Source: Streptomyces sp. NRRL S-87
GTDB lineage: Bacteria > Actinomycetota > Actinomycetes > Streptomycetales > Streptomycetaceae
Length of the DNA stretch: 64,000 nucleotides
Direction of reading: 5' to 3'
Assembly (NCBI RefSeq): GCF_000719335.1
Contig: NZ_JOGB01000015.1
Coordinates: 51,937 to 115,936, forward strand
Part shown: positions 15,034-37,959 of the stretch, piece by piece
Position numbering within the stretch: position 1 is the stretch's first letter
Layout of the letters: each line of letters begins with the position of its first letter
Notes under the pieces: generated by a model
The model's database searches: none
Told to the model about the DNA's origin: nothing
Seen by the model: the letters and a program-made list of their open reading frames with translations, nothing else
Program-made: the position numbers and the translations under genes

Positions 15034-16392
15034 CTACGCCGGGTCCGGAGCGTCCGCGCCGTCCGGGAGCCAGCGCAGGAGCTCCTCGCGGAACGGCAGG
15101 GTGCAGTCCAGCTGGGCCAGGACCGCGACCGCGCTGCCCACGACGCGGTTGACCAGCACGTACGAGGGCGGCAGGTTCAGACTGCGCAGCAGCGCCGTCC
15201 GGTGGGCGCCGGCGGCGTTCGCCACCTGCGCGCGCAGCCACTCCCGGCTGAAGCGGTGCCGTTCCGCGCGGGCCGGCTCGGCGATCGGCGTCAGGAACGC
15301 CCTGAGCGCGTCCTCCTCCAGCCGTGCGTCGGGCCGCAGGAAGCCCTCCTGCACGAGCACGGCTCGGGCGCCCTCCCAGTCCTCGGCCAGCGCGAGCCGC
15401 ACCAGCCGGCCCATGGCGGGCGGGAACCCGTCCGGCAGCTCCTTGACCGCGCCGAAGTCGACGGCGCCCAGCCTCCCGTCCGGCAGCAGCCGGAAGTTGC
15501 CGGGGTGCACGTCCGCGTGCAGGTAGCCGGCCCGGCTCGGCCCCGACAGCAGGAACCGTACGTACGCCAGCCCGGCGGCGTCGCGTTCGGCCGGGCTGCC
15601 GTCCCGGACCACCCGCGAGAGCGGGGTGCCGTCCAGCCACTCGGTCACCAGGACCCGCTCCGTGGCGGCCACCACGTCCGGCACCACCACCTCGCCACCG
15701 CCCCGGTAGGCCTCCGCGAAGGCCCGCTGCGCCACCGCCTCCCGTCGGTAGTCCAGCTCCTCGGCCACCCGCTCGCGCAGTTCGTCGAGCATGGGCTGGA
15801 CGTCGAGCCCCGGCGCGATGACGGAGCAGAGCTTGACGGCCCGCCCGAGACGGGCGTAGTCGCCGAGCAGGGCCTCACCCGCACCCGGGTACTGGATCTT
15901 CACGGCGACGGGCCGGCCGTCGCCCCAGATGGCCCGGTGGACCTGGCCGATCGAGGCGGCCGCCGCCGGCTCGTCCTCGAAGGACTGGAAGGCCGTGCGC
16001 CAGTCGGGGCCCAGCTCGGCGGCCAGCACCCGGTGGACCTGCTCGGCGGGCAGGGCCGGCGCGGCCTCCTGCAGCAGCGTGAGCGCCGCCCGGTACGGGC
16101 CCATCGCCTCGGCCGGCAGCGCGGCCTCGAACACCGACAGCATCTGGCCGAACTTCATGGCGCCGCCCTTGAGCTCGCCGAGCACCCGGAAGAGGTGCCG
16201 GCTCGTGCGCCGCTGGAGCTCCTCCGTCAGCAGCTCCGCCGGCTGACCGGCCAGCAGCTTGCCGGCCCGGACCGCGGACCGGCCGGCGAAGCCCAGCGGC
16301 AGCGCCGCCAGGCGCGCGCCCCGCGCCAGGGCGGACAGCGGCACCGTCCGCCCGGGACGCGGCGAACGGAGGGGAGGGGGAGGCGGGGTCAT
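15034..16392 (-). CDS. ABC1/AarF (UbiB-like) atypical kinase
   Basis: 452 residues of the ABC1/ADCK family. The diagnostic KxGQ-like motif MKFGQMLS is near residue 90, the Ala-rich loop AAAASIGQVHRA near 150, the Lys in VAVKIQYPG, and the metal and catalytic motifs HADVHPGNF and AVDFGAVKE. In other organisms these proteins act as ATPases or kinases supporting isoprenoid-lipid (quinone) synthesis. Its ATG overlaps the TGA of trpEG, so it is the last gene of the long minus-strand operon. That makes a link to the cluster product or to membrane-lipid handling plausible but unproven. Confidence 0.88.
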   Translation of the reverse strand: MTPPPPPLRSPRPGRTVPLSALARGARLAALPLGFAGRSAVRAGKLLAGQPAELLTEELQRRTSRHLFRVLGELKGGAMKFGQMLSVFEAALPAEAMGPYRAALTLLQEAAPALPAEQVHRVLAAELGPDWRTAFQSFEDEPAAAASIGQVHRAIWGDGRPVAVKIQYPGAGEALLGDYARLGRAVKLCSVIAPGLDVQPMLDELRERVAEELDYRREAVAQRAFAEAYRGGGEVVVPDVVAATERVLVTEWLDGTPLSRVVRDGSPAERDAAGLAYVRFLLSGPSRAGYLHADVHPGNFRLLPDGRLGAVDFGAVKELPDGFPPAMGRLVRLALAEDWEGARAVLVQEGFLRPDARLEEDALRAFLTPIAEPARAERHRFSREWLRAQVANAAGAHRTALLRSLNLPPSYVLVNRVVGSAVAVLAQLDCTLPFREELLRWLPDGADAPDPA

Positions 16393-18764: not shown

Positions 18765-18780
18765 GGGAGCGACGGTCCTT

Positions 18781-18900: not shown

Positions 18901-18931
18901 CCGGGCAAGGGAAGGGAGGGCGGGACGGGCT

Positions 18932-20374
18932 TCAGCGGGCGGTCCGGCCGCGCGCGTCGTGGCGGGCCACGACGCGGTCCACGAAGAGTCCGGCGGCACC
19001 CGTGTACCGCTCGGGCCCGCACAGCGCGTGCAGCGCGGCGGCGTCGAACCGGCCCCCGGGGTCCGGCCGTCCGGCCAGCAGCTCGGCCAGTACGTCGGCC
19101 AGGTGCCGGCCGTCCGCCGCCGCCAGCGCGCTGGCGCCGCCGACGACGGCCTTGGCCTCGGCGCGCCCGAGGTCGGCCGCCAGCACCGCGGCCAGCCGCT
19201 CCGACACCACCAGGCCCCGGGTGAGACGGAGGTTGGCGGCCATCCGGTCCTCGTGCACCACGAGCCCCTCGGCCAGCTCGGCGGCCGTCCGGGCCGCGCC
19301 GCCCACCAACCGCAGGCACTCCCGCAGCGGCTGCCACTCGGCGTGCCAGGCCCCGGCCGGCCGCTCGTCGTCCACCACCGCGGTGTGCGCGAGCGTCGCC
19401 AGCATCGAGGGCACCTGGTAGGCGGCCGAGCGGACCAGGGCGGACAGTGCCGGATTGCGCTTGTGCGGCATGGCGGAGGAGGCGCCCCGGCCGGCCGCGC
19501 CGGGCTCGCTCAGCTCGCCGGTCTCGGTGCGGGCGAGCAGCTGTACGTCCGCCGCCACGGTGCCCAGTGCGGTCGCCGCCCCGCACAGCGCCGCCGCCAG
19601 CCCGAGCAGCGGCGTACGGACCGACTGCCACGGCACCAGCGGGTTCGCCAGCCCCAGCCGCGCGGCCACCAGGGCCGGCAGCCGGGCGGCGAACTCGCCG
19701 GGCGCCGGAACCTGCGGGACGCCGCCCGAGCGGGACGCCAGTGCCGCGTACTCGAGGTAGCCGGCCATCGTGCCGGCGGCCCCGCCGAGCTGCACGGGCA
19801 GCCCGTCGGCGTGCAGGTCCCGCAGCCGGTCGGCCGCGTCCATCACGCCCTGCAGCCAGCCCGCGGCCTTCAGCCCGAAGGTGGTGGGCACGGCGTGCTG
19901 GCCGAGCGTCCGGGCCGGCATCACCGTGTCGCGGTGCCGGACGGCCAGGTCGCGCAGGGCCGCGGCGGTGCGGTCCAGGTCGATCAGCAGGGGCTCCAGG
20001 GCGCGCGAGGCCACCAGCATCAGCGCGGTGTCGAGCACGTCCTGACTGGTGGAGCCCTGGTGGACGTAGTGCGCCGCGGCCGGGTCCAGCGCGGCCACGC
20101 GGTCGGCGAGCACGGCCACCAGCGCCACCACCGGATTGGCCGACTCCCGGCCGCGTCGGGCCAGTTCGGGCAGGTCGAAGTCCTCCGCCCGGGCCGCCGC
20201 GCGGATCGCCCGGCCGGCCTCGGCCGGGACGCTGCCCAGCCGCACCTGGGCCAGCGCGAGCGCGGCCTCCACGTCGAGCATCGCCTGCAGGCAGGCGGTG
20301 TCGCTCGTCGCGGCCTCGGCCGCGGTGCCCGCCCGCACGGGGGAGAGCAGCCCCGCGTCGCCGTACGCCCTCAT
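18932..20374 (-). CDS. Fumarase/aspartase-superfamily lyase, candidate nitrosuccinate lyase (CreD-like)
   Basis: 480 residues. The superfamily signature GASSAMPHKRNP lies at about residues 297-308, and HQGSTSQDVLDTALML at 105-120 matches the second conserved block, closest to PcaB-type cycloisomerases and adenylosuccinate lyases. Primary-metabolism roles are unlikely here because the gene is coupled by an ATGA overlap to a large FAD/NAD(P)-binding protein. That pairing is the known CreE/CreD arrangement, in which aspartate is oxidised to nitrosuccinate and the lyase releases nitrous acid and fumarate. The superfamily call is firm; the nitrosuccinate assignment rests on context. The start at 20374 is used because upstream codons lie within the preceding gene. 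Confidence 0.75.
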   Translation of the reverse strand: MRAYGDAGLLSPVRAGTAAEAATSDTACLQAMLDVEAALALAQVRLGSVPAEAGRAIRAAARAEDFDLPELARRGRESANPVVALVAVLADRVAALDPAAAHYVHQGSTSQDVLDTALMLVASRALEPLLIDLDRTAAALRDLAVRHRDTVMPARTLGQHAVPTTFGLKAAGWLQGVMDAADRLRDLHADGLPVQLGGAAGTMAGYLEYAALASRSGGVPQVPAPGEFAARLPALVAARLGLANPLVPWQSVRTPLLGLAAALCGAATALGTVAADVQLLARTETGELSEPGAAGRGASSAMPHKRNPALSALVRSAAYQVPSMLATLAHTAVVDDERPAGAWHAEWQPLRECLRLVGGAARTAAELAEGLVVHEDRMAANLRLTRGLVVSERLAAVLAADLGRAEAKAVVGGASALAAADGRHLADVLAELLAGRPDPGGRFDAAALHALCGPERYTGAAGLFVDRVVARHDARGRTAR

Positions 20375-22512
20375 CGGCCCCCCTGCCCACGGCCACCGGC
20401 GACCAGCGCGCACGGAACGGGCACGGGATCAGGCCCCACCGCCGGCCGCCCCGGCGCGGGAACGGTCGCGGGCCCCCGTCCCGCCACGGCTGCGGCCACC
20501 GGCCCCGGAGCGACCGCCGTGCCACCGACACCTTCCCGGTCGCTCCCGCGGCCACCCCCGCCGGCGGTACCGGCGGCGCAGACGCCGTCACCGGCCCCGG
20601 CCCGTCCCGGACCCGCCGGTGCCAGCACCGCGAGGGCGATGGCGTCGGCGTCGGCGAGCGTCACGGAGTTGACCCCGGGCCGCACCCCCGCCGCCGTGAC
20701 CCAGTGGACCCCCTCCGTCGGCACGCCGTACGCGAACCGGCGCGGATGCGTCCGCCCCGCGGCGTCCAGGACCCGGTAGGGGCGCCCGGTGACGGCCAGC
20801 CCGCCGGTCTCGTACCCCGCCCCCTGAGGGCCGGGTACCACGTACGGCCGGCACCCGCCCGCCTCGCGCAGCGAGACCAGCAGCGGATCGGTGCTCGTGC
20901 GCAGGTCCGGGGCCGGCAGCCGGGCCTCGACGAGCGCGGTGGCCCGCACCGCCGAGCCCGCCACCCGGGGCGAGGAGACGGTGAAGGCGCCGGCTGCGGC
21001 GTCGGCGGTCACCTCCATCCCCGGACCCACGACGTCCACGACGCCGGCCTCGATCAGCGCGACCAGTTCCTCGATGCGCCGCGCGGGCGGCCCGATCGAC
21101 AGGAACGCGTTCAGCGGGGTGTACCAGCGCTCCAGGTCGTCGCGGTGGGACCGGCCGGTCAGCCCGCCGTGGTCGACCAGCAGCCGGATCTCGTTGCGCA
21201 GGTCGCGCAGGGCGTCCAGGGCCGCCTTCAGCGGACCGCTCACGTTCCCCGCCGCCGCGGCCGCCACGTCGGCCCGCAGGACGCCCAGCAGCCACCGGCG
21301 GTGGGCCCCGGGGTCGTCGAAGGACCAGGCCGACGCGGGGTCGGCCAGGCGCGCCCAGTCCCAGCGGTCGGCCTCGGCGACGCCGAACCGGTCCAGCACG
21401 CGGGCCTCCTCGGCCGAGCCGTGCGGCACCGGCAGGAAGGCCCGCCGCAGGCGCGCGGCCTCGCACCCGCAGGACCGCCCGGCCAGCAGCGCCCCGTAGT
21501 AGACCGTCTCCACCTCCTTGGCGACCAGCGGCCAGACGTCGCGGCCGAAGTCGAGGCCGCCGTCCGCGGCCCGCTCCCGTAGCCGCGCCACCCGGTCGGC
21601 GGTGAGCACCAGGGGCTCGTGCCGGCCGTGCGCGCCCTTCTCGTTGCGGCCCCGGCTGTGGTACGGCAGCCCGCGCCGGGACGAGGCGTACAGCCGCGGC
21701 TCGCGCCCCGACGGCACGTACACCAGCCGGCCGAGACGGCGCTCGAACCGGCCGCCGCGCCCGACGGTCAGCAGCGCCATGTGGTCGAAGAAGTTCAGCC
21801 CGAGGCCGCGCAGGGCGACCGCCTCGCCCGGCACGATCCCGGACAGGTCCGCGTCCGCCGGATTGCCGGGGGCGACGTACGTCAGACCGTGGGCGGCGGC
21901 GAAGGCACCCAGCTCCCGCTCCCGGGCGGTGGGCCGGGCGGCGCCGTGGCCCTGCGCCAGTACCACCGCGTCCAGTCCGGTGAGCACGGTGCCGTCGTCC
22001 AGGGTGACGCGCTGGCGGCCGCCGGGCCCGTCGTCGACCGACGTCGCGGTGGCGGGGTGCACCACGATCCGCACGCGCTCCGGCGCGGTGGCGACGATCC
22101 GCCGGAACGCCCAGGTCAGGTAGTGGCCGTAGAAGGCGCGGCTGGGGTAGGAGTCCGGGGTCAGGGCCCGGGCCTCGGCCAGGACCTCCTCCTCGTAGTC
22201 CTCCAACGGACCCATCAGGACCAGGTAGTTGGCCCACTCGTACAGGCTGGGTCCGGGGGAGAGCCGGCCGGCCATCTCCACGCTCGCGTCGGTGAACACC
22301 GTCACCTGCGAGGCGATGGTGTTCATCAGCAGCAGCCGGGACTGGTCCGTGCGCCACACGGCGCCGGCACCCGGCGGGTGCGGGTCGGCCACGTGCACGG
22401 TCACACCGGTGACCGCCCCGTCCGCGGGGGCGTTCGCGCACAGCCGCTCCAGCACGGCGAGGCCCCGGGGCCCGGCTCCTACGATGCAGACCTCAAGGTG
22501 TCCGTCTCTCAC
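20371..22512 (-). CDS. FAD/NAD(P)-binding monooxygenase, candidate aspartate N-oxygenase (CreE-like)
   Basis: 713 residues. EVCIVGAGPRGLAVLERL at the N-terminus is the dinucleotide-binding motif of the FAD-NAD(P)-binding protein family that includes CreE and FzmM, flavoenzymes that oxidise the aspartate amine to a nitro group. The middle of the protein has no other recognised domain. The C-terminal ~90 residues are a Gly/Ala/Pro-rich tail of low complexity. The GTG at 22512 is chosen because GGAGAG lies four bases before it; an upstream GTG at 22554 would overlap the acyl-CoA dehydrogenase gene. It is coupled to the lyase gene, which supports a joint nitrite-forming role. It could be a different N-hydroxylase. 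Confidence 0.75.
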   Translation of the reverse strand: MRDGHLEVCIVGAGPRGLAVLERLCANAPADGAVTGVTVHVADPHPPGAGAVWRTDQSRLLLMNTIASQVTVFTDASVEMAGRLSPGPSLYEWANYLVLMGPLEDYEEEVLAEARALTPDSYPSRAFYGHYLTWAFRRIVATAPERVRIVVHPATATSVDDGPGGRQRVTLDDGTVLTGLDAVVLAQGHGAARPTARERELGAFAAAHGLTYVAPGNPADADLSGIVPGEAVALRGLGLNFFDHMALLTVGRGGRFERRLGRLVYVPSGREPRLYASSRRGLPYHSRGRNEKGAHGRHEPLVLTADRVARLRERAADGGLDFGRDVWPLVAKEVETVYYGALLAGRSCGCEAARLRRAFLPVPHGSAEEARVLDRFGVAEADRWDWARLADPASAWSFDDPGAHRRWLLGVLRADVAAAAAGNVSGPLKAALDALRDLRNEIRLLVDHGGLTGRSHRDDLERWYTPLNAFLSIGPPARRIEELVALIEAGVVDVVGPGMEVTADAAAGAFTVSSPRVAGSAVRATALVEARLPAPDLRTSTDPLLVSLREAGGCRPYVVPGPQGAGYETGGLAVTGRPYRVLDAAGRTHPRRFAYGVPTEGVHWVTAAGVRPGVNSVTLADADAIALAVLAPAGPGRAGAGDGVCAAGTAGGGGRGSDREGVGGTAVAPGPVAAAVAGRGPATVPAPGRPAVGPDPVPVPCALVAGGRGQGGR

Positions 22513-22546: not shown

Positions 22547-23689
22547 TCACACACCGAGATCGCGGCCGATGATCTCTTTCATGATTTCGTTCGTGCCGCC
22601 GTAGATCGGGTGCACGCGGTTGTCCACGAAGGCCCGGGCCACCGGCGTCTCGCGCATGTAGCCGTAGCCGCCGTGCAGTTGCACGCACCGGTCCAGCACC
22701 CGGCGCTGGACGTCGGTGGCCCACCACTTCGCCTTGGCGGCGTCCACCGCGGACAGCCGGCCGGCGTTCAGCTCGCCGATCGCCCGGTCGACGTACGTAC
22801 GCGTCACGTCCAGTTCGGTGGCCATCTCGGCCAGCTCGAACCGGTTGTGCTGGAACGATCCGACGGGCCTGCCGAAGGCCGTCCGGGTGCGGCAGTACTC
22901 CAGCGTCTGCTCCAGCGCCGTCTCCGCCGCGGCCACCGCGTACGCGGCGATGCCCAGGCGTTCGCGCGGCAGGTTGTCGGACAGGTGCAGGAACGCCCGC
23001 CCGGGGGTGCCCAGGACGTTCGCCACCGGCACGCGCACCTCGTCGAAGAACAGCTCGGCGGTGTCCTGCGCCCGCATGCCGATCTTGTCGAGCTCGGGGC
23101 CGCGCGTGAAGCCCGGCATGCCGGCCTCGACCACCAGCAGGGTCAGCCCCCGCGCCCCCGAGCCGGGGCCGGTGCGCGCCACGACCAGGACCAGGTCGGC
23201 GTGGATGCCGTTGGTGATGAAGGTCTTCGAGCCGGTGAGCACGTAGGCGTCGCCGTCGAGGCGGGCACGGGTACGCACCGCCTGGAGGTCGCTGCCCGCG
23301 CCCGGCTCGGTCATGGCGATCGCGGTGACGAGGTCGCCGGAGCAGAAGCCGGGCAGCCAGCGCCGGCACTGCTCCGGGTCGGCCAGCTCCAGCAGGTAGG
23401 GGGCCACCACGTCGTTGTGCAGGGCGAAGCCCACGCCCGTGGCACCGACCCGCATCAGCTCCTCGCTGATGATGACCTGGTAGCGGAAGTCGGCCGTGCC
23501 GCCACCGCCCCACTCCACGGGGACGTCGATCCCGAGCAGGCCCAGGGCGCCGGCCTTGCGCCAGACCTCGCGGTCCACCAGCCCGGCCCGCTCCCAGGCG
23601 GCGTGGTGCGGGACGATCTCCTTCTCGACGAAGGCGCGGACCGTGGCCCGGAAGGCCCGGTGCTCGTCGTGCAGTTCGCCCTCACGCAC
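22547..23689 (-). CDS. Acyl-CoA dehydrogenase family flavoenzyme
   Basis: 380 residues, full-length family member. The FAD-contact block AMTEPGAGSDLQAVRTRA is near residue 125, CVQLHGGYGYMRETPVAR near 340, and the expected catalytic base is the Glu of YGGTNEIMKEIIGRDLGV at the C-terminus. In this cluster the substrate is probably an acyl chain or a heteroatom-bearing acyl group on one of the two carrier proteins rather than a catabolic acyl-CoA, giving an alpha,beta double bond. The GTG start overlaps the end of the thioesterase gene by eight bases. The gene ends 34 bases before the FAD protein start. Confidence 0.9.
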   Translation of the reverse strand: MREGELHDEHRAFRATVRAFVEKEIVPHHAAWERAGLVDREVWRKAGALGLLGIDVPVEWGGGGTADFRYQVIISEELMRVGATGVGFALHNDVVAPYLLELADPEQCRRWLPGFCSGDLVTAIAMTEPGAGSDLQAVRTRARLDGDAYVLTGSKTFITNGIHADLVLVVARTGPGSGARGLTLLVVEAGMPGFTRGPELDKIGMRAQDTAELFFDEVRVPVANVLGTPGRAFLHLSDNLPRERLGIAAYAVAAAETALEQTLEYCRTRTAFGRPVGSFQHNRFELAEMATELDVTRTYVDRAIGELNAGRLSAVDAAKAKWWATDVQRRVLDRCVQLHGGYGYMRETPVARAFVDNRVHPIYGGTNEIMKEIIGRDLGV

Positions 23690-24188
23690 CGGGCACCCCC
23701 TGCGGACGGTGCAGGATCTGCTCGACGCGGCCGGCGCTGCCGGTGTGGCCGTCCTGCTCGAAGGCGACCTCGACGACGGCCAGGCGGGTGGTGCAGAGCG
23801 ACAGCTCGGCGCGCACCTCGACCGGGCCGGGGCGCAGCGGAGCGTGGTACGTGACCTTCAGGTCCGAGGTGAGGAAGCGGGTGCCGTCGGGCAGGGCGGA
23901 GAGCATCACCAGCCCGGCGAAGTGGTCGACGAGGCAGGCGATCCAGCCGCCGAACACCACGTTCGGGGTGAGGGTGAGGGGCTCCTCGAAACGGGTGGAG
24001 CACGTGACGCGGCCGGCGGCGAACCCGGTGGCCGGCGGCAGGCGCAGGGTCCCGGCGGCGGCGGGGCCGGGGACCGAGCCGTCCACGAGCCCGGCGAGCA
24101 GGCGGCGGCCCTCGGTGGACAGGCCCGGGGCGGCCATGCCGCGCAGCTGCGCGGGGACGTCGGCCGCGGGGGCGGAGGGAACGGGCAT
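23682..24188 (-). CDS. Hotdog-fold thioesterase (PaaI-like)
   Basis: 168 residues. The hotdog signature PNVVFGGWIACLVDHFAGL (about residues 76-94) contains the GG-x8-D helix-cap pattern with the putative catalytic Asp, followed by the strand LKVTYHAPLRPGPVEVRAEL. It would hydrolyse acyl thioesters, either releasing a cluster intermediate from an acyl carrier protein or proofreading it. It starts at the ATG at 24188 behind GGAAGGAGG-like sequence. A 115-base gap with a strong hairpin separates it from the upstream diiron oxygenase gene, the largest gap within the run from the ligase genes to this point. Confidence 0.82.
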   Translation of the reverse strand: MPVPSAPAADVPAQLRGMAAPGLSTEGRRLLAGLVDGSVPGPAAAGTLRLPPATGFAAGRVTCSTRFEEPLTLTPNVVFGGWIACLVDHFAGLVMLSALPDGTRFLTSDLKVTYHAPLRPGPVEVRAELSLCTTRLAVVEVAFEQDGHTGSAGRVEQILHRPQGVPGA

Positions 24189-28645: not shown

Positions 28646-30435
28646 GACGTGGTTCCTTCCAGGGTGGCGGCGGCCGTACGGGCAGCCGTGGTGGTGGGGG
28701 CGGCGGCGCGGGCGGCCGCCGCGGGACCGGTCGGCGGGGCCGCCGGCCGGGGTCTTGCGGTGCCGGCGTCGTCGGTGCCGGCCTCGGCGAGGTGGGCGCG
28801 GTAGAGGTCCGCCGCGCCGGAGCGCCTGACCTTCCCCGAGCTCGTGAAGGGCAGGGCCGAGGTGGGGACCGGGACGACGTCCACGGCGCCCAGCCCCAGG
28901 TGTTCGGCGAGACGGGCGGCGATCGCCCGCCCGACGGCGGCGGCCGCCGCGCGGTCGAGCCTCGTCTCCCACAGCACGACCATGCGTTCCTCCGCGCCCT
29001 CGTCGTCGGCCGCTCCCCAGGCGAAGGCGGCGCACTGGCGGCCCGCGCCCGGAGTGGCCTTGACGACCTCTTCGACGTCCTCGGCGTAGTAGTTGTGGCC
29101 GCGGACGACGGCCATGGCCTTGAGCCGGCCCAGGAGGTGCAGCTCGCCCTGGTGCAGGAAGCCGATGTCCCCGGTGCGCAGCCAGCCGTCCGGGGTGAAC
29201 GGCTGCGCCGCCGTGGGCAGTCCGAGGTAGCCGGCCGTCACGGGCGCGCCCGTGATCTGGACCTCGCCGGCGGTGTCCGCGGGCAGCTCCGCGCCCTCGG
29301 GCGTGCCGATCCGCACCCGGACGCCGGCCACCGGCTGCCCGCAGGAGACGACGGTGCGGGTGCCGGGACCGGGTTCCGCGGCGTAGCGCAGCCGGTCGCC
29401 GAGGCCCACGTGGGCGCGGTCGACGTCCACGCTGCGGTACGGCGAACGGGGCGCGCCCGTGGAGACCATCAGCGTGGCTTCCGCCATGCCGTAGTTGGGC
29501 TGCACCACCTGCGGCCCGAGCCCGTGGGGGGCGAAGGCGTCGCGGAAGGCGTGCAGGCTGGCGAGCCGCACCGGCTCCGATCCGTTGCCGCCGTACCGCC
29601 AGCGCGACAGGTCCAGCCCCTCCGGCACGCCCTCCCGGGCGGCCGCGGCGACGAGGTAGTCGTAGAAGAAGTTGGGCGCGGGCGTCATGGTGGCCCCGCA
29701 GGCCGCGAACTCCGACAGCCACGCCAGCGGCCGGCGCACGAAATCGCCCGGCTCCCACAGGTGGACGGAGGAGCCCCGGCGCAGCGCGTTGAGCAGGCTG
29801 AACAGGCCCATGTCGTGGAACAGCGGCAGCCACTGGCCCAGCACGTCGTCGGGCGCCCAGCCGGTGCCCGCCGCGATGACGTCCAGCCCCGCGGCCGCGT
29901 TGTCGTGGCTCACCAGGACGCCCTTGGGCGCCGACGTGCTGCCGGAGGTGTACTGGACGACCGCCGGCCGCGCGCCGCCCCCGGTCAGGCCCGGCAGCAC
30001 CGCCCGCTCGGCCGGCGGCTGCGCGATGTCGACGAACCGGACCGCCGGGACGGCCTCGGCCACGCGCGAGACGATCCGCCGGCCGACGCTGCCGTCGACC
30101 AGCATCACCTCCAGCCCGGCGTCGTCGGCGATCCGCCGGACGTGCTCGGCGTACGCGTCCGCGCCGCCGAAGGCCACCGGCAGCGCCAGCGGCACGGCCG
30201 CCGCATCCAGCCGGAACGCGGCCAGCAGACCGCGCACCCACGGCTCGCCGTTGGCCATCAACAGCCCGACACGGGTGGGCCGTACGCCGTCCAGCGCCGC
30301 CAGCACGGCGCCCGCCGTGCGCTCGGCCCGGGCCAGCAGCTGCGGGCCGGAGACCGGCTCGGTGCGCCGTCGCGGCGTGTGCAGCAGGGTGTCCTCGCGC
30401 AGGGACCGCTCCAGCAGGGTCCACAGGTGCACCAC
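28642..30435 (-). CDS. Fatty acyl-AMP ligase (FAAL type)
   Basis: 597 residues, with motifs of the fatty acyl-AMP ligase branch: VQYTSGSTSAPKGVLVSHDN (P-loop), LPLFHDMGLF, PNYGMAEATLM and the C-terminal LPFTSSGKVRRS with the catalytic Lys. Enzymes of this branch activate free fatty acids as acyl-AMP and pass them to a carrier protein instead of CoA. The last ~45 residues are an Ala/Pro/Thr-rich tail. The GTG at 30435 lies three bases after the preceding stop, with AAGGGGG as ribosome binding site. Its stop overlaps the start of the second carrier-protein gene, its likely acceptor. Confidence 0.88.
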   Translation of the reverse strand: MVHLWTLLERSLREDTLLHTPRRRTEPVSGPQLLARAERTAGAVLAALDGVRPTRVGLLMANGEPWVRGLLAAFRLDAAAVPLALPVAFGGADAYAEHVRRIADDAGLEVMLVDGSVGRRIVSRVAEAVPAVRFVDIAQPPAERAVLPGLTGGGARPAVVQYTSGSTSAPKGVLVSHDNAAAGLDVIAAGTGWAPDDVLGQWLPLFHDMGLFSLLNALRRGSSVHLWEPGDFVRRPLAWLSEFAACGATMTPAPNFFYDYLVAAAAREGVPEGLDLSRWRYGGNGSEPVRLASLHAFRDAFAPHGLGPQVVQPNYGMAEATLMVSTGAPRSPYRSVDVDRAHVGLGDRLRYAAEPGPGTRTVVSCGQPVAGVRVRIGTPEGAELPADTAGEVQITGAPVTAGYLGLPTAAQPFTPDGWLRTGDIGFLHQGELHLLGRLKAMAVVRGHNYYAEDVEEVVKATPGAGRQCAAFAWGAADDEGAEERMVVLWETRLDRAAAAAVGRAIAARLAEHLGLGAVDVVPVPTSALPFTSSGKVRRSGAADLYRAHLAEAGTDDAGTARPRPAAPPTGPAAAARAAAPTTTAARTAAATLEGTTS

Positions 30436-30438
30436 GGC

Positions 30439-32079
30439 TCAGGCCCCCTTCAGGGCGGTCACGGTCGCGGTCGCGGTCGCGGCCTGGACCGGGACCGGGA
30501 CCGGGCGGCCCGCGCCGACGCGCCGGGCGAGCCGCTCGCGCAGCACCGAGCGGCGCACCTTGTACGAGCCGGTGACCGGCACCGCCTCCCAGTCCCAGAA
30601 CCGCACCTCCACCTCGGGGAGCCCGGCCTCCGCCGCCGCCGCGTGGAAGCGCCCGGCGTCCGGAGCGGAGCCCGGCCGGGGGCAGGCGACCGCCAGCAGC
30701 GCGCCGTCCCCGGACTGGATGAGCACCAGTTCCACCAGCTCGGGCAGCGCCTCCAGCAGGTGGTCCTCCTTCTCCAGGAGGCTGCCCACGCCGTCGACGT
30801 GGTCGACGACCCGGTCGAGCAGTTCCAGGGAGCCGTCGGGCAGGATCCGGCCGATGTCGCCCATGGGCCACCAGGCGTCGTCCGCCGGCATGGGACCGCC
30901 GCCGACGTAGCCGCGCATGCGGCCCATCGACCGGGTCTCGATCCGGCCGGCGGTGCCCACCGGCAGTGCGCCGCCGGTCTCGTCGACGACCCGCATCTCG
31001 AAGCCGCCGCCGGCGTGGCCGACGTTGCGCGGGGAGTAGTCCGCGGACTCCTCGCGGGTGACGATCCGCAGGCAGATCGGACCCGTCTCGGTCTGCCCGT
31101 ACGCCTGGAAGTAGTGGGCGCCGGGCCGCTCGGAGGCGGCCAGCAGGGACCTGACCGTGCGCGGGTGCATGGCGTCGAAGGTGCTGATGAACCGTTCCAC
31201 CGGGGCCAGCGGCCGGTCCGGGTCCTCGGCCAGCGGCTCCCACTGGATGTACATGTTGGGGTGGGTCTCCAGCGACGTCGGGCGGTGCTCCAGCAGCAGG
31301 CGCTTGACGTTGGCGGGGTCCGGATCGGCGATGGCCAGCGACGGCATCCCGATCTCCAGGGAGGCGAGCGTGCCGGCGCAGGTGCGGGCGTGCACGAAGG
31401 ACAGGTGCTTCGCGTTCAGGTCCGTCAGGGAGTACTGGTCCCGGAATATCATGATCATCGGGGCGACCATCCCGAACAGCGAACGCGTCGAGTGCGCACA
31501 CATCTTGGGCGCACCCGTGGTGCCGGACGAATGGGTGATGACGAACCACTCGTCCTCGTCGCGCGGCTCGGCCGTGTGCGCGGAACGCTCCAGGGCCGGA
31601 ACCACCCAGGAGTGCTCGCTCTCCCCGAGCGAGAGCACCCGGCGGGTCAGCTGCCCGAGCGCGTGGCGGGCCGCGCCGAGCCGGTCGAGCCCGGTCCCGT
31701 CGACCAGCAGGTACGGCCGCTCCAGCCGGGCCAGGCACTCGAGCAGCTCGCCCGGCTCCATGGCCGAGGACAGCAGGGCCGGCAGGGCGCCGATCCGGCC
31801 GAGCGCGCACATCACGCCCTCGACCTCGATGTGGTTGCGCTGCACGACGGCGACCACGTCGCCGCGGCGGATCCCGGCCGCCCAGAAGCGGTCGGCGTAG
31901 TCCTCCACCGCACGGGCGAAGTCGGCGATGGTCGCCACGGTGCCGTCGAAGGCGTTCCAGCCGCTGTCCGACAGGAAGGGCGTGTCCGGGAACTTCTCGG
32001 CCGCGATCTCGGGCAGCAGGCCCAACGGGGCCGTGGGGCGCGGCACCGCGTCGAGCTGGAGGGCGGAGACATCAGGCAT
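30439..32079 (-). CDS. Divergent AMP-forming ligase, candidate diazotase or aryl-acid ligase
   Basis: 546 residues of the ANL superfamily. The P-loop is THSSGTTGAPKMCAHSTRS and the A5 motif QAYGQTETGP. The C-terminal end is VPVTGSYKVRRSVL, where Tyr replaces the Gly normally preceding the catalytic Lys. It is the first gene of the long operon, starting from the ATG at 32079 behind AGAGGATT. Cremeomycin and related nitrite-dependent pathways use an ANL-family enzyme (CreM type) for ATP-dependent diazotisation of aryl amines, and this divergent ligase is the best candidate for such a step here. It could equally activate anthranilate or another acid. Confidence 0.78.
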   Translation of the reverse strand: MPDVSALQLDAVPRPTAPLGLLPEIAAEKFPDTPFLSDSGWNAFDGTVATIADFARAVEDYADRFWAAGIRRGDVVAVVQRNHIEVEGVMCALGRIGALPALLSSAMEPGELLECLARLERPYLLVDGTGLDRLGAARHALGQLTRRVLSLGESEHSWVVPALERSAHTAEPRDEDEWFVITHSSGTTGAPKMCAHSTRSLFGMVAPMIMIFRDQYSLTDLNAKHLSFVHARTCAGTLASLEIGMPSLAIADPDPANVKRLLLEHRPTSLETHPNMYIQWEPLAEDPDRPLAPVERFISTFDAMHPRTVRSLLAASERPGAHYFQAYGQTETGPICLRIVTREESADYSPRNVGHAGGGFEMRVVDETGGALPVGTAGRIETRSMGRMRGYVGGGPMPADDAWWPMGDIGRILPDGSLELLDRVVDHVDGVGSLLEKEDHLLEALPELVELVLIQSGDGALLAVACPRPGSAPDAGRFHAAAAEAGLPEVEVRFWDWEAVPVTGSYKVRRSVLRERLARRVGAGRPVPVPVQAATATATVTALKGA

Positions 32080-32523: not shown

Positions 32524-33069
32524 GTGGTGAGCTCCGCACACGAGCCCGAGCTCGATCCCGTCCGCCGCATGCGCGTGATGGCGGCCGCGCTGCCGCTGCA
32601 CTGCCATGCCGAGGCCTTCCTCGAGGCCCCGTTCGTCGACGTCTGGGCCGTGGCCGGCGACCCGGAGGGCGGGCTGCCCCGCCTCCTTCCCGGCCTGCGC
32701 CGACTCGTGCTCGTCGACGGCCCCGGTCCGCACCAGCGCGCCCGCGCCCACGGTCCGTGGGGCCGCGTCGTCGAGGCGGACGTCCTGCGCCAGCCGGGCT
32801 GGTGCCTGATGCAGAGCGAGCGCACCTTCCTCGGCCTGGCCGCCGTACCGCAGGACCACGGCACCCGGTTCGGCTTCTTCGCCGGCCCCCGGACCGCCCG
32901 GAACGCGGCGGCCGGGCACGTCCTGGAGCGGTACGGGGACCTCTACGCCCGCCGCGTCGTCGCCCGGCTCCGGGCGAGCGTGGCCGACGGCCGCACCGGG
33001 CGGCCGCCGGGCCCCGCGGGACCCGATCGGAGATCCGACGGAACCTTCCGCCACCCGCCCGGCTCCTGA
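32524..33069 (+). CDS. SRPBCC-like protein flanking the cluster (first paralogue)
   Basis: 181 residues. It shares the order LDPxRRxxVxAAA, then WAVAxDxE and then PGWCLMQSxxT with the protein encoded at 37471-37959, so the two are paralogues. The pattern fits the SRPBCC/cyclase-dehydrase fold, though I do not recognise a named family. The start is one of two tandem GTG codons (32524 or 32527); the alignment to the paralogue shows that the later ATG at 32569 is too short. It lies 66 bases upstream of the MMPL exporter gene on the same strand and faces the biosynthetic operon, which suggests a ligand-binding or cyclase-like role for the cluster product. Confidence 0.75.
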   Translation: MVSSAHEPELDPVRRMRVMAAALPLHCHAEAFLEAPFVDVWAVAGDPEGGLPRLLPGLRRLVLVDGPGPHQRARAHGPWGRVVEADVLRQPGWCLMQSERTFLGLAAVPQDHGTRFGFFAGPRTARNAAAGHVLERYGDLYARRVVARLRASVADGRTGRPPGPAGPDRRSDGTFRHPPGS

Positions 33070-33135: not shown

Positions 33136-35433
33136 GTGAAGAACAGGCGCAGCCTCGCCGAGGCGGCCGGACGCTGGAGCGCGAGCCACCGCTGGGCGGC
33201 CGTACTGCTCTGGCTGACCTTCGTCGTCGCCGCCACCGTCACCGGGTCAGCCGTGGGCACCGCCGCCCCGACCCCGGCCGAACTGACCAACGGCGAGGCC
33301 CGAAGGGCCGAGGAGATCCTGGAGCGGGCGGGCTTCGAACTCCCCGCCCACGAAGTGGTCCTCCTCCAGTCCGAGTCCACCACCGTCGACGACCCGGGCT
33401 TCCGGGCGGCGGTGACCGACACCGTCCGCGCCCTGCGGGACAGCGGCAGGACGCAGAACATCGTCTCCCCGCTCGACCCCGCCGGCCGCCCGGCCGTCTC
33501 CGCCGACCGCCGTTCCGCCCTCGTGCAGTTCGACATGCGCTCGGCCACCGTCACCGCCAAGGAAGAGGTGCAGCCGGTCCTCGACGCGGTCGACCGCATC
33601 GGCAGGGCCCACCCGGGCCTGCGCGTCGAGCAGTTCGGCGAGGCCTCCTTCCAGCACGGCTACGACACCAAGCTCCACGAGGACTACACCGAGGCCGAGA
33701 ACCTCTCGTTCCCCGTCACCCTGGTCATCCTGCTCCTGGCCTTCGGCGCCTTCGTCGCGGCGCTGCTGCCCGTCGTCCTCGCCCTCACCGCCGTCGTCGC
33801 GGCCGGCGGCCTGCTCGCCCTGACCAGCCAGATCGCCCACGTCGACCAGAACGGCACGTCGGTGATGTCGCTCATCGGCATCGCCGTCGGCGTCGACTAC
33901 TCCCTCTTCTACATCCGCCGCTTCCGCGAGGAGCGCGCCCGCGGCCAGGAGGCCCAGGCCGCCGTAGCCGCCGCGGCCGCCACCTCCGGGCACTCCGTCG
34001 TCGTCTCCGGCCTGACCGTCATCGTCTCCCTCGCCGGCCTGTTCCTGTCCGGCAACGGCATCTTCGTCGGCATGGCCGGCGCCACCATCGTCGTCGTCGC
34101 CACCGCGGTCCTCGGCTCCGTCACCGTCCTGCCCGCGCTGCTCTCCCTGCTGGGCGACCGCGTGAACACCGGCCGCCTGCCCCGCCTCCGCCGCCGTACG
34201 AAGAGCCAGGACCCTGCGCCGGGCGCGGGCACCACGGGACCGGCCGCCCCCGCGTCCCCGCGCACCGGCCGCGGCTGGAACGCCCTCCTGCGCGGCGTCC
34301 TCAAGCGCCCGCTGGTCGCCGTCGCCGTGTTCGGCGGCCTGCTGACCGCCCTGCTGCTGCCCGCCTTCTCCCTGCACACCGGCGAGCCGGGCGTCAGCGA
34401 CCTGCCGACCCGGGCGCTCCCGGCGCTGGGCACGTACGAGCGCATCCAGCACGCGTTCCCCGGCTCGGCCACCCCCGCCAAGGTCGTCGTCCACAGCACC
34501 GACCTCGGCGGCCCCGAGACCCGCGCGGCCCTGGACCGCTTCCGTACCGCCGCCGAGAACACCCCCGGCCTGCACGGCCCGGTGACCTTCCGCACCGGCG
34601 GCGACGGGACGGTCGCCATCGTCACCGTCGGCCTGGCCGGGACCGGCACCGACGAGGCCTCCGTACGCGCCCTGGGCACCCTGCGCGCCACGGTCGTACC
34701 CGCCACCTTCGGCGCCGTCCGGGGGGCCGACGTGGCCGTCGGCGGCACCACCGCCGCCTCCGTCGACAGCGGCGAGCACCTCTCCGACGCCACCGGCCGG
34801 GTCGCCGGCTTCGTCCTGGTGTTCACCTTCCTCGTGATGCTCTTCTCCTTCCGCTCGCCCGCCATCGCGGCCGTGACGCTCGTCCTCAACCTGCTCTCGG
34901 TCGGGGCCGCCTACGGCGTGGTCGTGCTGGTCTTCCAGCACGGCTGGGGCGAGGGCCTGCTGGACTTCACCAGCACCGGGGCCATCGCCTCCTGGGTGCC
35001 GCTGTTCCTGTTCGTCTTCCTCTTCGGCCTGTCGATGGACTACCACGTGTTCGTCGTCAGCCGGATCCGCGAGGGCCACGACCGGGGCCTGTCGACCGAC
35101 CGCGCCATCGAGGAGGGCGTCACCGGGACCGCCGGTGCCGTCACCGGCGCCGCCGTGGTGATGGTCGCCGTCGCGGCCGTCTTCGGCACCCTGCCGCAGC
35201 TGTCCATGAAGGAGTCCGGCGTCGGCATGTCCGTGGCGGTCCTCCTCGACGCCACCGTCATCCGCGTCGTGCTGCTGCCCGCGGCCCTCAAGCTCCTCGG
35301 CGACCGGATCTGGCGCACCCCGCGCCTCCTCCGCAGGACCCCGGCTCCGCACCCCGCGGGCCCGGCGACCGCCGCCGCCGATGCCGAGCGGTCCGCCCAC
35401 GACGACCGACGGCCCGTCACCACGGGCGCGTAG
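33136..35433 (+). CDS. MMPL-family (RND) exporter
   Basis: 765 residues with two repeats of one N-terminal membrane segment, a periplasm-facing domain and a bundle of about five further segments. The conserved GIAVGVDYSLFYIRRFREE (near residue 255) and FGLSMDYHVFVVSRIREG (near 635) hold the proton-relay Asp-Tyr pairs of the MMPL group. GTG at 33136 follows GGAG by six bases. MMPL proteins export lipids and lipid-like specialised metabolites; its place beside the acyl-carrier cluster suggests it exports the product. A perfect terminator hairpin follows. Confidence 0.92.
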   Translation: MKNRRSLAEAAGRWSASHRWAAVLLWLTFVVAATVTGSAVGTAAPTPAELTNGEARRAEEILERAGFELPAHEVVLLQSESTTVDDPGFRAAVTDTVRALRDSGRTQNIVSPLDPAGRPAVSADRRSALVQFDMRSATVTAKEEVQPVLDAVDRIGRAHPGLRVEQFGEASFQHGYDTKLHEDYTEAENLSFPVTLVILLLAFGAFVAALLPVVLALTAVVAAGGLLALTSQIAHVDQNGTSVMSLIGIAVGVDYSLFYIRRFREERARGQEAQAAVAAAAATSGHSVVVSGLTVIVSLAGLFLSGNGIFVGMAGATIVVVATAVLGSVTVLPALLSLLGDRVNTGRLPRLRRRTKSQDPAPGAGTTGPAAPASPRTGRGWNALLRGVLKRPLVAVAVFGGLLTALLLPAFSLHTGEPGVSDLPTRALPALGTYERIQHAFPGSATPAKVVVHSTDLGGPETRAALDRFRTAAENTPGLHGPVTFRTGGDGTVAIVTVGLAGTGTDEASVRALGTLRATVVPATFGAVRGADVAVGGTTAASVDSGEHLSDATGRVAGFVLVFTFLVMLFSFRSPAIAAVTLVLNLLSVGAAYGVVVLVFQHGWGEGLLDFTSTGAIASWVPLFLFVFLFGLSMDYHVFVVSRIREGHDRGLSTDRAIEEGVTGTAGAVTGAAVVMVAVAAVFGTLPQLSMKESGVGMSVAVLLDATVIRVVLLPAALKLLGDRIWRTPRLLRRTPAPHPAGPATAAADAERSAHDDRRPVTTGA

Positions 35434-35454
35434 CGCCACCTGCACCGAACGAGC

Positions 35455-35688: not shown

Positions 35689-36399
35689 ATGCCTCGACTT
35701 GCCTTCTGTGCGCGCGTCTGCCTGGTCGCCGCCCTGGCCGTCATGTCGCCCCTCGCGGTTTCCGCGCAGGGGGAGGAGCAGCGGAACGCCAAGGTCCCGG
35801 GCAACACGACCGTCGACTACGACCTCTCCGGCTACCTCCAGATCAGAGCGGCCCCCGGCAGAGCCAACAAGATCACGATCCACGGGGGCACCCCGTTCGG
35901 AAGCGTCAAGGTCTACGACGACGGAGACGTGGTGTCGGGTCCGCAGGGGGACGAGCTCAACCTGAACAGCACGGGTATCTGGAGAATCAACGTCGAAGCC
36001 GGAGACGGCGACGACGTCGTCTCCAACCTCACCGACCTGAAGATGGTCGTCCACGGCGGCCCCGGAAACGACGTCCTCAACGGCAACTCCGGTTCCGACA
36101 CGTTCTACGGCGAGGCCGGTGACGACCGGATCGACGGTGGAGACGGCCCCGACTGGGCCTACGGCGGACCCGGGAACGACACCATCGAAGGCGACTACGG
36201 GAACGACAGGTTGTACGGGAACACCGGCGATCCGGCGGCGCCGGACGGAGACGACGCCATTCGCGGCCAGGAGGGTGACGACACCATGTACGGAGAGGCC
36301 GGGAACGACTCGCTCGACGGAGGTCCGGAATTCGACACGGCGTACGGCGACTCCGGAGTCGATGCGTGCCCGAACAGTGAAGTCAAGGTGGACTGCTGA
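35689..36399 (+). CDS. Secreted RTX-type calcium-binding repeat protein
   Basis: 236 residues. A signal peptide (LAFCARVCLVAALAVMSPLAVSA) is followed by a beta-rich domain of about 90 residues and then roughly ten nonapeptide repeats of the GGxGxDxux type (GGPGNDVLNG, GEAGDDRIDG, GGPGNDTIEG, GQEGDDTMYG), which bind calcium in a parallel beta-roll. The protein ends with a Cys-containing segment (DACPNSEVKVDC). The start ATG at 35689 gives the cleanest signal peptide. The base composition is visibly lower in GC than the surroundings. It has its own terminators and no obvious functional link to the cluster. Confidence 0.85.
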   Translation: MPRLAFCARVCLVAALAVMSPLAVSAQGEEQRNAKVPGNTTVDYDLSGYLQIRAAPGRANKITIHGGTPFGSVKVYDDGDVVSGPQGDELNLNSTGIWRINVEAGDGDDVVSNLTDLKMVVHGGPGNDVLNGNSGSDTFYGEAGDDRIDGGDGPDWAYGGPGNDTIEGDYGNDRLYGNTGDPAAPDGDDAIRGQEGDDTMYGEAGNDSLDGGPEFDTAYGDSGVDACPNSEVKVDC

Positions 36400-36406
36400 A
36401 CCCGAC

Positions 36407-36500
36407 GCGAAGACCTCCGTGCGGCGCGGTCCTGGAAACCCGCCCCATCGGAGGTCTTCGCCGTGCTCAAGACGTTCCGGTGACGACCACGCGCGTGGTC
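36407..36500. terminator. Bidirectional terminator between RTX and PPTase genes
   Basis: GCGAAGACCTCCG (36407-36419) pairs exactly with CGGAGGTCTTCGC (36449-36461), with a smaller GC hairpin inside the loop. A second palindrome, GACCACGC-GCGTGGTC at 36485-36500, overlaps the stop codon of the convergent PPTase gene. Together they can stop transcription from both sides. Confidence 0.7.
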
Positions 36501-37260
36501 AGTCCACCTGGTCCCGCCCGTCCGGTCCGTCCCGCCCGTCCGGCCCCTCCAGCCCGTCCCGCCCGCCCAGCACGGCCCACGCGAGCATCCCGCCGGGGAC
36601 CGGACGGCACGTCACCAGTGCCTCGGGACCGGGCCCGGCGGCCGGGCCGGCGGTGAAACCGCCCGCGCGCGGGCGCAGCCGCACGGCGCGCAGACCCGGC
36701 AGTTCCGCGCCGAGCAGCGGGCTCAGCGCCTTGAACGCCGCCTCCTTCGCCGCGTAGAGCTCCAGCATCCGCCGCTGCGCCGCCGCCGAGGCGCTCACGA
36801 GATCCCGTTCGGCCGGGCCCAGCACCAGATGGGCGGCGGCCGGGGGCGGCCCGCCGAACTCCAGGTCCACGCCCAGCCCGGCCACTTCGGCGGTCCGCGC
36901 GACCACCGCCACCGCCACCCCCCGGGAGTGGCTCACCGAGCCCGTCACGCCCGCCGGGAACTTCGGCCGGGGTCCCTCCCGCAGCACCGGCCCCGCCGCG
37001 ATGCCCGCGTCGCGCAGCGCCCGGCGCAGGGCGCACCTGCCGACGAGGAAGTCCGCGCGCCGCGCGGGCGGCATCTGCGCGGCCAGCGCCAGCTCCGCCT
37101 CGTGCACCGCCGGCGGCGGGCCCTCGTGCACGGACGCGATGCCGAAACCCACGCCCCGCAGTCGCGGCCGTACGCGGTGCAGGTGCCGCGGCAGCGTCTG
37201 TACGGGCACCCAGTCACGCGCCGGGGCCGGCCTGCGGCCCGCCACGCTCTTCACCGTCAC
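36499..37260 (-). CDS. 4'-Phosphopantetheinyl transferase
   Basis: 253 residues of the EntD/Sfp superfamily. Signature blocks are GSVSHSRG (about residue 111), GLGVDLEF with the metal-binding Asp and Glu (about 130) and LELYAAKEAAFKAL (about 165). It transfers phosphopantetheine from CoA to the carrier-protein serine, so it can activate the two acyl carrier proteins of the cluster. GTG at 37260 follows AAGGAGAG by about six bases. It is divergent from the second SRPBCC-like gene. It could also serve other pathways in the cell. Confidence 0.92.
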   Translation of the reverse strand: MTVKSVAGRRPAPARDWVPVQTLPRHLHRVRPRLRGVGFGIASVHEGPPPAVHEAELALAAQMPPARRADFLVGRCALRRALRDAGIAAGPVLREGPRPKFPAGVTGSVSHSRGVAVAVVARTAEVAGLGVDLEFGGPPPAAAHLVLGPAERDLVSASAAAQRRMLELYAAKEAAFKALSPLLGAELPGLRAVRLRPRAGGFTAGPAAGPGPEALVTCRPVPGGMLAWAVLGGRDGLEGPDGRDGPDGRDQVD

Positions 37261-37412: not shown

Positions 37413-37470
37413 GGCGCCGGGGCGCTCCCCGACGAGGAGCGCGACCTTCCGGTACGGAGGAGCAGACGAC

Positions 37471-37959
37471 ATGAGCGATCTCGGCGCGGCCGCCTGGCCC
37501 CAGGCGGATCTGGACCCTTTGCGGCGTCTGAAGGTCATCGCCGCCGCCGTCCGGGCGCCCATGTACGCGGAACGGCACTACGACGTCCCGCCGGAGCGCC
37601 TGTGGGCGGTGGCCGCCGACCTGGAGAACGAACTCCCGCACATCATCCCGGCGTTGAAGTCCTTCACCCTGCTCGGCGCGGAGGGGGAGCGGCTGACGGC
37701 CCGCGCGGTCGGCCGACTGGGCCTGCCGGAGGCCTTCGACGTCGTCCTGCGTCCCGGGTGGTGCCTGATGCAGAGCCGGACGCTCATGGGGGCGATGGCC
37801 GCGGTGCCCCACGACGGCGGCACGACCTTCGCCTTCGCCTCCGGGCTGCGCAGGCCGGGCGGCGCGCTGCTGAAGCGGCTGGGCCTGTTCGGGACCGAGG
37901 CCCGCGGCCATGCCCTCCTCGACCGCCTCCAGGAACGCATCGACGCCCGCTCCCAGTAG
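37471..37959 (+). CDS. SRPBCC-like protein flanking the cluster (second paralogue)
   Basis: 162 residues, with ATG at 37471 behind GGAGGAG. It shares LDPLRRLKVIAAAV, LWAVAADLENELPHIIPAL and PGWCLMQSRTLMGAMAAVPHDGGT with the protein encoded at 32524-33069. The C-terminal helix (HALLDRLQERIDA) completes an SRPBCC-like layout. Divergent from the PPTase gene, it marks the right edge of the biosynthetic region. Ligand and reaction are unknown. The sequence after its stop is a fragment of an unrelated oxidoreductase, so the locus has been rearranged. Confidence 0.78.
   Translation: MSDLGAAAWPQADLDPLRRLKVIAAAVRAPMYAERHYDVPPERLWAVAADLENELPHIIPALKSFTLLGAEGERLTARAVGRLGLPEAFDVVLRPGWCLMQSRTLMGAMAAVPHDGGTTFAFASGLRRPGGALLKRLGLFGTEARGHALLDRLQERIDARSQ

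Follow-up and report, generated by a model that had tools for sequence, protein, structure and literature searches.

A conserved Streptomyces gene cluster with predicted anthranilate, nitrite and acyl-carrier chemistry and a putative relative of nitrite-dependent diazotases

A 64,000-nucleotide stretch of the genome of Streptomyces sp. NRRL S-87 (contig NZ_JOGB01000015.1, positions 51,937 to 115,936; hereafter the window, with a G+C content of 75.6%) carries 13 tightly spaced minus-strand genes, which run from 32079 down to 15034. The host genome comprises 8.15 Mb in 255 contigs. From the 5' end, the gene order is ligA, FAAL, ACP1, TGL, ACP2, ligB, diiron, TE, ACAD, CreE, CreD, AS, and ABC1. 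We lean, by a little, toward the view that these genes form a thio-templated cluster that would link a fatty acyl chain to an anthranilate unit and form an N−N bond using nitrite. What is new here is the apparent grouping of ligA with diazotases, a D-x-x-H signature at the A4 position that seems common to both, and the linkage of the ligA family to CreE. The 13 genes are as follows.

30439..32079, minus strand: ligA, first gene, AMP-forming (ANL) enzyme of 546 amino acids, PF00501; putative nitrite-dependent diazotase/N-nitrosating enzyme
28642..30435, minus strand: FAAL, fatty acyl-AMP ligase of 597 amino acids, PF00501 162 bits
28331..28645, minus strand: ACP1, carrier protein, PF00550 30.1 bits
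27300..28334, minus strand: TGL, transglutaminase-superfamily protein, triad Cys228/His261/Asp276
26992..27303, minus strand: ACP2, carrier protein, PF00550 20.8 bits, at the cut-off
25419..26990, minus strand: ligB, acyl/aryl-CoA-ligase-like ANL enzyme adjoining ACP2, PF00501 237 bits
24304..25422, minus strand: diiron, ferritin-like diiron protein, PF11583 60 bits (cut-off 29.6)
23682..24188, minus strand: TE, 4HBT hotdog thioesterase, PF03061 46.8 bits
22547..23689, minus strand: ACAD, acyl-CoA dehydrogenase family
20371..22455 (start at 22455 or 22554), minus strand: CreE, flavin L-aspartate N-hydroxylase-like, PF13454 149 bits
18932..20374, minus strand: CreD, nitrosuccinate lyase-like, NF052556 601.6 bits
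16389..18764, minus strand: AS, fused anthranilate synthase (TrpE plus glutamine amidotransferase), TIGR01815
15034..16392, minus strand: ABC1, ABC1/UbiB-like atypical kinase coupled to AS, PF03109 176 bits

The intergenic gaps along this order are 3, −4, −4, −4, 1, −4, 115, −8, 91, −4, 167, and −4 bases. A preliminary description of the locus had proposed one coupled operon; judged by these gap sizes, the label of a single operon is fair for the 13 genes, with three possible internal breaks. The genes that it had named (the fused anthranilate synthase, CreE and CreD, three AMP-forming ligases, two carrier proteins, the transglutaminase-like enzyme, the diiron protein, the acyl-CoA dehydrogenase, and the thioesterase) were all recovered by family matches. 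Three ANL enzymes, ligA, FAAL, and ligB, and no further one are present among the gene calls of the window, and Pfam scans of the operon genes detected no ketosynthase. The 167-bp gap between CreD and AS (18765-18931) consists largely of pyrimidines when read on the coding strand, with CCCTTCC-type repeats.

Scanning 84,980 species genomes with a TGL profile yielded 12 loci (L017 to L028), and the order ligA-FAAL-ACP1-TGL-ACP2-ligB was found in all of them. Because this core order recurs in every public-genome locus, the cluster is more than a chance arrangement. The genome pairs G279/G301, G197/G305, and G131/G307 have identical coordinates, and each pair was taken as one genome. Beyond the core, the diiron gene is present in 11 of the 12 loci (L028 lacks it), TE in 11 (L022 is cut short), and ACAD in 9 (none was seen in L027 and L028, and L022 is cut). 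AS is found in eight loci, running off the ends in L017, L018, and L020; L022 and L024 end before it, and none was seen in L027 and L028. With the window and one further locus, L176, there are 13 readable clusters (the window, L017 to L021, L023 to L028, and L176), L022 being cut before the relevant part. The cluster is present in many related bacteria, and it has no known product in the literature searched. In the part read, L028 (Saccharothrix algeriensis) and L176 have the TGL core without diiron, ACAD, or CreE/CreD and instead contain a FAD_binding_3 monooxygenase, an MFS transporter, and a P450, which suggests that a related product may be made there through other tailoring.

The best PDB match of ligA is Tri17 (9bq0/8tf7, described as Tri17 structures in the available text of PMC11705231), with 66.9 bits, followed by FadD5 with 63.5 bits. 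In a tree of 54 ANL enzymes, ligA and the diazotases are split from 36 others with a Shimodaira-Hasegawa-like approximate likelihood ratio (SH-aLRT) support of 99. The same support was obtained in a second tree, from which the motif columns were removed and to which 14 ligA relatives were added; here ligA and the diazotases are separated from 26 others and fall into separate clades, the ligA clade being sister to the AvaA6/Tri17-type diazotases. The trees took 7 of the 13 ligA orthologues together with the enzyme of L156; to limit their size, 21 of the 27 mid-scoring diazotase-type loci (L129 to L155) were dropped beforehand, as were 12 and 20 ANL name prefixes, mostly of nonribosomal peptide synthetase-type or remote-cluster domains, for the first and the second tree, respectively. 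Profile comparison starting from ligA placed the two diazotase groups among the best matches (271 and 259), with the next group at 258. At the aligned A4 position, ligA reads FDAMHPRTVR and the diazotases read GD[AC]xHxxHI[RK], with D-x-x-H common to both; none of the other ANL rows printed shows it at this position, a like string occurring elsewhere in L097 and L101. The identity of ligA to the diazotase rows used is 24 to 27%, and its functional ANL motifs (P-loop, the Mg-ligand Glu in YGQTE, and the A10 Lys) are kept in all 13 loci. These features make ligA a putative relative of the CreM/AvaA6/Tri17-type diazotases.

Of 394 genomes of the class, 25 have a ligA relative at E <= 1e-55, and so do 137 of 392 genomes of the genus, the genus scan having scored at most three candidates per genome, with weaker matches and genomes below its cut uncounted. 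We inspected 72 listed ligA-family places, which come from 49 genomes, mostly of few contigs, chosen by hand out of the 137 with matches. Thirty of these places lie within 20 kb of CreE (12 within 2 kb), with 0.5 expected; this is about 60 times a chance level that is uniform over 9.5 Mb and so understates the clustering of such genes, and G757, G722, and G965 contribute mirrored end copies to the count. Twelve regions were read, and in all eight CreE-linked loci among them (L165 to L172) every ANL enzyme found within 20 kb is of the ligA type, which makes it the sole ANL candidate for nitrite use there. SRPBCC-like genes adjoin the ligA relatives in L165 to L167, L169, and L170, and L166 combines the ligA-like gene with a zinc-dehydrogenase (quinone-reductase-like), an SRPBCC gene, an AS-like protein, a 207-amino-acid protein, and a DhbA-like dehydrogenase. 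Relatives that are not linked to CreE are accompanied by PabAB-like (L173) or AS-like (L174 and L175) genes; in L173 and L174 a further ligB-like enzyme is nearby, which is of the benzoate-CoA-ligase type in L173. Judging from these neighbors in linked and unlinked loci, aminobenzoate-type genes commonly accompany ligA, and CreE does so frequently. A distant genus (L156/L164) has ligA (36%), TGL (34%), ligB (38%), and a carrier matching the ACP2 profile, as well as MMPL, 4'-phosphopantetheinyl transferase (PPTase), CreE (66%), and CreD (59%) genes.

For CreE, the sole PDB match at E <= 0.001 is 8cp2 (704 bits), the Streptomyces V2 L-aspartate N-hydroxylase according to the available text of PMC10404684, so that by PDB scores CreE is closest to the L-aspartate N-hydroxylases. 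The top PDB match of CreD is CreD itself (5xny, 436 bits), ahead of PcaB (247) and adenylosuccinate lyase (115), and its best NCBIfam family is the nitrosuccinate lyase NF052556 (601.6 bits, compared with 371.5 for the PcaB type and 199.1 for purB); the score misses the equivalog cut-off of 650, which is a threshold of the model and not a biochemical feature. By these scores, rather than by a tree, the lyase is nearer to CreD than to PcaB or PurB, both of which were set aside as its identity, and the assignment of the pair in the preliminary description therefore holds. The sequences place the pair, whose genes overlap by 4 bases, in the aspartate-nitrosuccinate pathway. In the window, L017, L018, and L020, CreE and CreD are flanked by ACAD and AS. 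L024 has CreE alone, its contig ending before CreD; L025/L089/L090 have CreE in place, with CreD ~17 kb off at the opposite side. CreD of L027 lies upstream, and L026 has the pair at the far end. Altogether, CreE is linked to the TGL cluster in 8 of the 13 readable clusters. The genome that contains the window harbors a further CreE/CreD pair (L094, C24:107955-114466), which has an AvaA6-type diazotase (341 bits) and an O-methyltransferase as neighbors and is apparently part of a second diazo cluster, and another CreE/CreD pair at C49:44067-47500 (L095). A CreD-like lyase with 56% identity is present in Saccharothrix (G308 C1:1031383-1032735), in a genome without a CreE match at E <= 0.001.

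FAAL, whose best NCBIfam model is a fatty acyl-AMP ligase (304 bits, below the cut-off of 600), adjoins ACP1 in 12 of 12 loci (L017 to L028). In all 13 loci, the window counted, the carrier Ser lies in G(I/M)ES in ACP1 and in GxxSGE(L/I/V) in ACP2, the tested FAAL and ligB motifs are retained, and the Cys228-His261-Asp276 triad of TGL is intact. TGL of the window gave no match in Pfam, or in phmmer and profile searches against the PDB. We assign it to the transglutaminase superfamily because 27 of 51 aligned members match PF01841, the triad is conserved, and the predicted structure has the transglutaminase fold. Its gene is coded between those of the two carriers (ACP1-TGL-ACP2). Another cluster with a carrier-TGL-carrier order is found in L157, where one carrier was recognized by profile and the other by motif only. 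A different conserved cluster (L158, L159, L160, L162, and L163) has a TGL (27 to 30%), a ferritin-like diiron protein, and a carrier-like gene, then proteins of ~275, 330, and 285 to 300 amino acids and another carrier-like gene. The L159 members of this trio of proteins are a class-II tRNA-synthetase-like protein, a nitronate monooxygenase, and an alpha/beta hydrolase, after which comes a PPTase. From its gene content, this type of cluster looks like one for N-oxidation of a carrier-bound amino acid.

Among the remaining enzymes, AS matches TIGR01815 with 896.8 bits (cut-off 739.15) and is additional to three other chorismate-binding loci of the genome; by its sequence it is a dedicated fused anthranilate synthase. 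ABC1 accompanies the cluster, its coupling partner being AS in the window and CreD in the Kitasatospora locus L090. The diiron protein belongs to the Pfam AurF family PF11583, above the cut-off (60 versus 29.6 bits), and its predicted structure (predicted local distance difference test score 80.9) has the AurF/CmlI/R2 fold, with CmlI and AurF among the closest folds and R2 and R2lox tying with AurF by Z score. The ligands E112, E142xxH145, E192, and E222xxH225 are invariant in 41 aligned sequences and in 12 of 12 loci, the window counted. AurF has an extra His ligand four residues before the last E-x-x-H; the corresponding residue here is V218, in a YVxRDEARH stretch common to the same 12 loci. 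The usual motif of acyl-CoA dehydrogenases is YEGT, and enzymes of the LCAD/IVD type have the ERL glutamate. ACAD reads YGGT, and the possibility that it is therefore dead was set aside, since the ERL Glu is conserved in all 10 loci that have ACAD, the window counted.

The preliminary description had also placed a PPTase and an exporter near the operon, where we found one PPTase gene and two MMPL exporter genes. These and the other neighboring genes are as follows.

32524..33069, plus strand: SRPBCC small protein, adjoining ligA, PF10604 20.8 bits (below the cut-off of 27.4)
33136..35433, plus strand: MMPL exporter, PF03176 255 bits, with homologues close to the cluster in several relatives
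35689..36399, plus strand: gene with RTX calcium-binding nonapeptide repeats, between exporter and PPTase
36499..37209, minus strand: PPTase, PF17837 and PF01648
37471..37959, plus strand: second SRPBCC-like protein, no Pfam match, homologous to the first, with homologues in relatives
38156..40402, minus strand: second MMPL exporter, PF03176 264.6 bits
43968..44495, minus strand: ECF-type sigma factor of a family recurring alongside the cluster in relatives
50500..61878, plus strand: large open frames of 1702 and 1332 amino acids toward the right end of the window, with no ANL domain

Position 37959, which had been taken as the right end of the cluster, is the end of the second SRPBCC-like gene and lies outside the operon. 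Genes for class II DAHP synthase, PPTase, alpha/beta hydrolase, ECF-type sigma factors, and SRPBCC proteins recur alongside the cluster in relatives; of these, the DAHP synthase and alpha/beta hydrolase groups are not represented in the window.

At the gene level, the cluster has functions for anthranilate, for nitrite, and for an acyl-carrier assembly line, and we infer the joining reactions. FAAL would load a fatty acid onto ACP1, and ligB an aryl or other acid onto ACP2. By analogy with AdmF, TGL would accept the acyl group of one carrier, forming a Cys-thioester, and hand it to an amine on the other. The ligA enzyme would activate nitrite with ATP and nitrosate or diazotize an anthranilate-derived arylamine, and ACAD, the diiron protein, and TE may adjust and release the product. 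Since an N-acylated anthranilate cannot be diazotized, either anthranilate would be the acyl donor or N−N formation would come first. The former would give an anthranilamide, from whose diazonium a 1,2,3-benzotriazin-4-one would arise by ring closure; the latter would lead to a hydrazide or hydrazone-type product. We give N−N formation on the anthranilate unit, in whichever order, slightly better than even odds. It is tempting to go further and assume a new class of N−N-bonded lipids, in which TGL couples carrier-bound fatty acyl and anthraniloyl groups and a second ANL clade (FDA[IM]HPxTV type) makes the N−N bond, with a lipid 1,2,3-benzotriazin-4-one or an acyl aryl-hydrazide as example products; this fuller proposal is tentative, and the chances are somewhat against it. 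Under this proposal, lineages that lack CreE/CreD would feed the assembly line with nitrite from another source.

The N−N chemistry that the preliminary description had suggested gains support from the apparent kinship of ligA to diazotases and the CreE linkage of its family; the CreE/CreD pair itself is not a fixed part of the cluster, and several findings weigh against a nitrite-dependent route. CreE/CreD are unlinked in 5 of the 13 readable clusters (L019, L021, L023, L028, and L176). The nearest pair is 228 kb distant in L019; L021 has CreD-like and 40% CreE-like matches on two other contigs; in the L176 genome, where only CreE was searched, it is 415 kb from the cluster; and the S. lucensis assembly G303 (L023) has no CreE or CreD match at E <= 0.001, while its ligA retains every motif tested. 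Of all the observations, this movement or loss of CreE/CreD weighs most heavily against a simple nitrite pathway. Furthermore, 42 of the 72 listed ligA relatives lie more than 20 kb from any CreE, and the lead of Tri17 over FadD5 is only 3 bits. On the AvaA6 model, ligA scores 60.3 bits with an equivalog cut-off of 975, less than on generic FadD models, the best generic model giving 121. It is not closely related to AvaA6 by this score, and a plain copy of an AvaA6-type diazotase was set aside; the model is AvaA6 specific, and the CreE-adjacent enzyme of the same genome, with 341 bits, is likewise below the cut-off. Approximately unbiased tests do not reject trees in which ligA is held with ligB (p = 0.067) or with FAAL (p = 0.075), and in profile comparison from the diazotases ligA (238) comes below the groups xlig (274), ligB (245), and FadD105 (240).

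A different reading is that the cluster makes an anthraniloyl or N-acylanthranilate lipid without an N−N bond, in which case ligA would activate the anthranilate carboxylate and CreE/CreD would be an accessory of some lineages, supplying nitrite for another reaction or a separate branch. We consider this unlikely but worth keeping in view. It would fit the clusters without linked CreE/CreD, four of which keep AS (L019, L021, L023, and L176), the aminobenzoate-type genes that adjoin ligA relatives without CreE in L173, L174, and L175, and the ordinary ligase groups that score at least as high as ligA from the side of the diazotases. It fits poorly with the split of ligA and the diazotases from ordinary carboxylate ligases, the diazotase-type A4 motif, and the CreE linkage ~60-fold above uniform chance, and in L173 the ligA relative is accompanied by a separate enzyme of the benzoate-CoA-ligase type. 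The tasikamide alkyl 5-hydroxyanthranilate (aha) pathway or a close variant, in which the diazotized arylamine couples to its partner nonenzymatically and which would make the chemistry a known one, receives a rather low probability from us. According to the available text of PMC11705231 and PMC11429834, aha makes an alkyl 5-hydroxyanthranilate and carries homologues of CreD, CreE, and CreM (Aha1, Aha2, and Aha11); the word “transglutaminase” does not occur in the available text of PMC11705231, PMC13061610, and PMC11429834, which name tasikamide and none of which is the original report. Finally, the diiron protein could N-oxidize a carrier-bound amine to a hydroxylamine, to which ligA would add nitrite to give an N-nitroso-hydroxylamine (diazeniumdiolate) or nitro lipid. 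The PF11583 match, the AurF and CmlI folds, and the TGL-diiron-carrier module with a nitronate monooxygenase in L159, a cluster of another type, would be in keeping with such a reaction, which we nevertheless think improbable given the tie of R2 and R2lox with AurF, V218 in place of the AurF His, and the clusters L028 and L176, in whose read part no diiron gene is present.

Natural products with N−N bonds have usually been discovered singly. Should the ligA clade be a second nitrite-activating ANL branch, many genes named acyl-CoA ligases would become searchable N−N bond enzymes; members of this clade (FDA[IM]HPxTV type) are common in the genus and often annotated as acyl-CoA or FadD ligases. 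The scale is set by the 137 of 392 genomes of the genus that match at E <= 1e-55, with under half of the places checked being linked to CreE. The cluster also offers a compact system of two carriers, two loading enzymes, and one transglutaminase for studying amide formation between free-standing carriers, and its natural relatives without CreE/CreD provide a way to ask whether nitrite is needed.

Several known systems resemble parts of this cluster. The gene content of L166 and L169 resembles that of the penzonemycin (pzm) cluster: ligA-like genes (545 and 522 amino acids) stand beside a 180-amino-acid SRPBCC-like gene, CreE, CreD, and an AS-like gene, and neighbors of 207/256 or 212/261 amino acids, the 256-amino-acid protein of L166 being DhbA-like, are near the sizes in the pzm table (PMC9323291, available text). 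This likeness is one of gene sizes and descriptions, and, unlike the present cluster, the table names no TGL, FAAL, or carrier. According to the available text of PMC11705231 and PMC11429834, tasikamide aha combines CreD and CreE with an anthranilate-type unit and a homologue of CreM, features that the present cluster would share. The spinamycin and avenalumic acid clusters likewise involve nitrite-dependent arylamine diazotization (PMC11705231, available text); theirs are aryl polyene-type products, whereas no ketosynthase is among the operon genes scanned here. We found no published cluster that combines anthranilate with a transglutaminase and with carriers or nitrosuccinate lyase, in a search that covered subscription journals thinly and is weak evidence of novelty; a 2026 diazo paper (PMC13061610) mentions neither “transglutaminase” nor “anthranilate” in its main text as available.

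The cluster shares CreE and CreD homologues with the pathway of cremeomycin, fosfazinomycin, and others and differs in that the pair moves, splits by ~17 kb, or is unlinked across the cluster family. With the diazotases and N-nitrosylases CreM, AvaA6, CmaA6, and Tri17, ligA shares D-x-x-H and, for its family, CreE linkage, with an apparent sister position in the trees; it differs in its 24 to 27% identity, in reading FDAMHPRTV rather than GDAAHEAHI, and in its separate clade, the sequence of CreM lying outside the comparison. AdmF of the andrimid pathway is a transglutaminase homologue that forms amides between carriers. The logic of a transglutaminase with two carriers, which the preliminary description had thought might be new, is hence only partly so, with AdmF as a precedent and the carrier-TGL-carrier order recurring in L157. 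The resemblance to AdmF lies in a transglutaminase-superfamily protein associated with carriers, here by the gene order ACP1-TGL-ACP2 only; in contrast to the andrimid system, the carriers of the present cluster are free-standing and adjoin FAAL and ligB.

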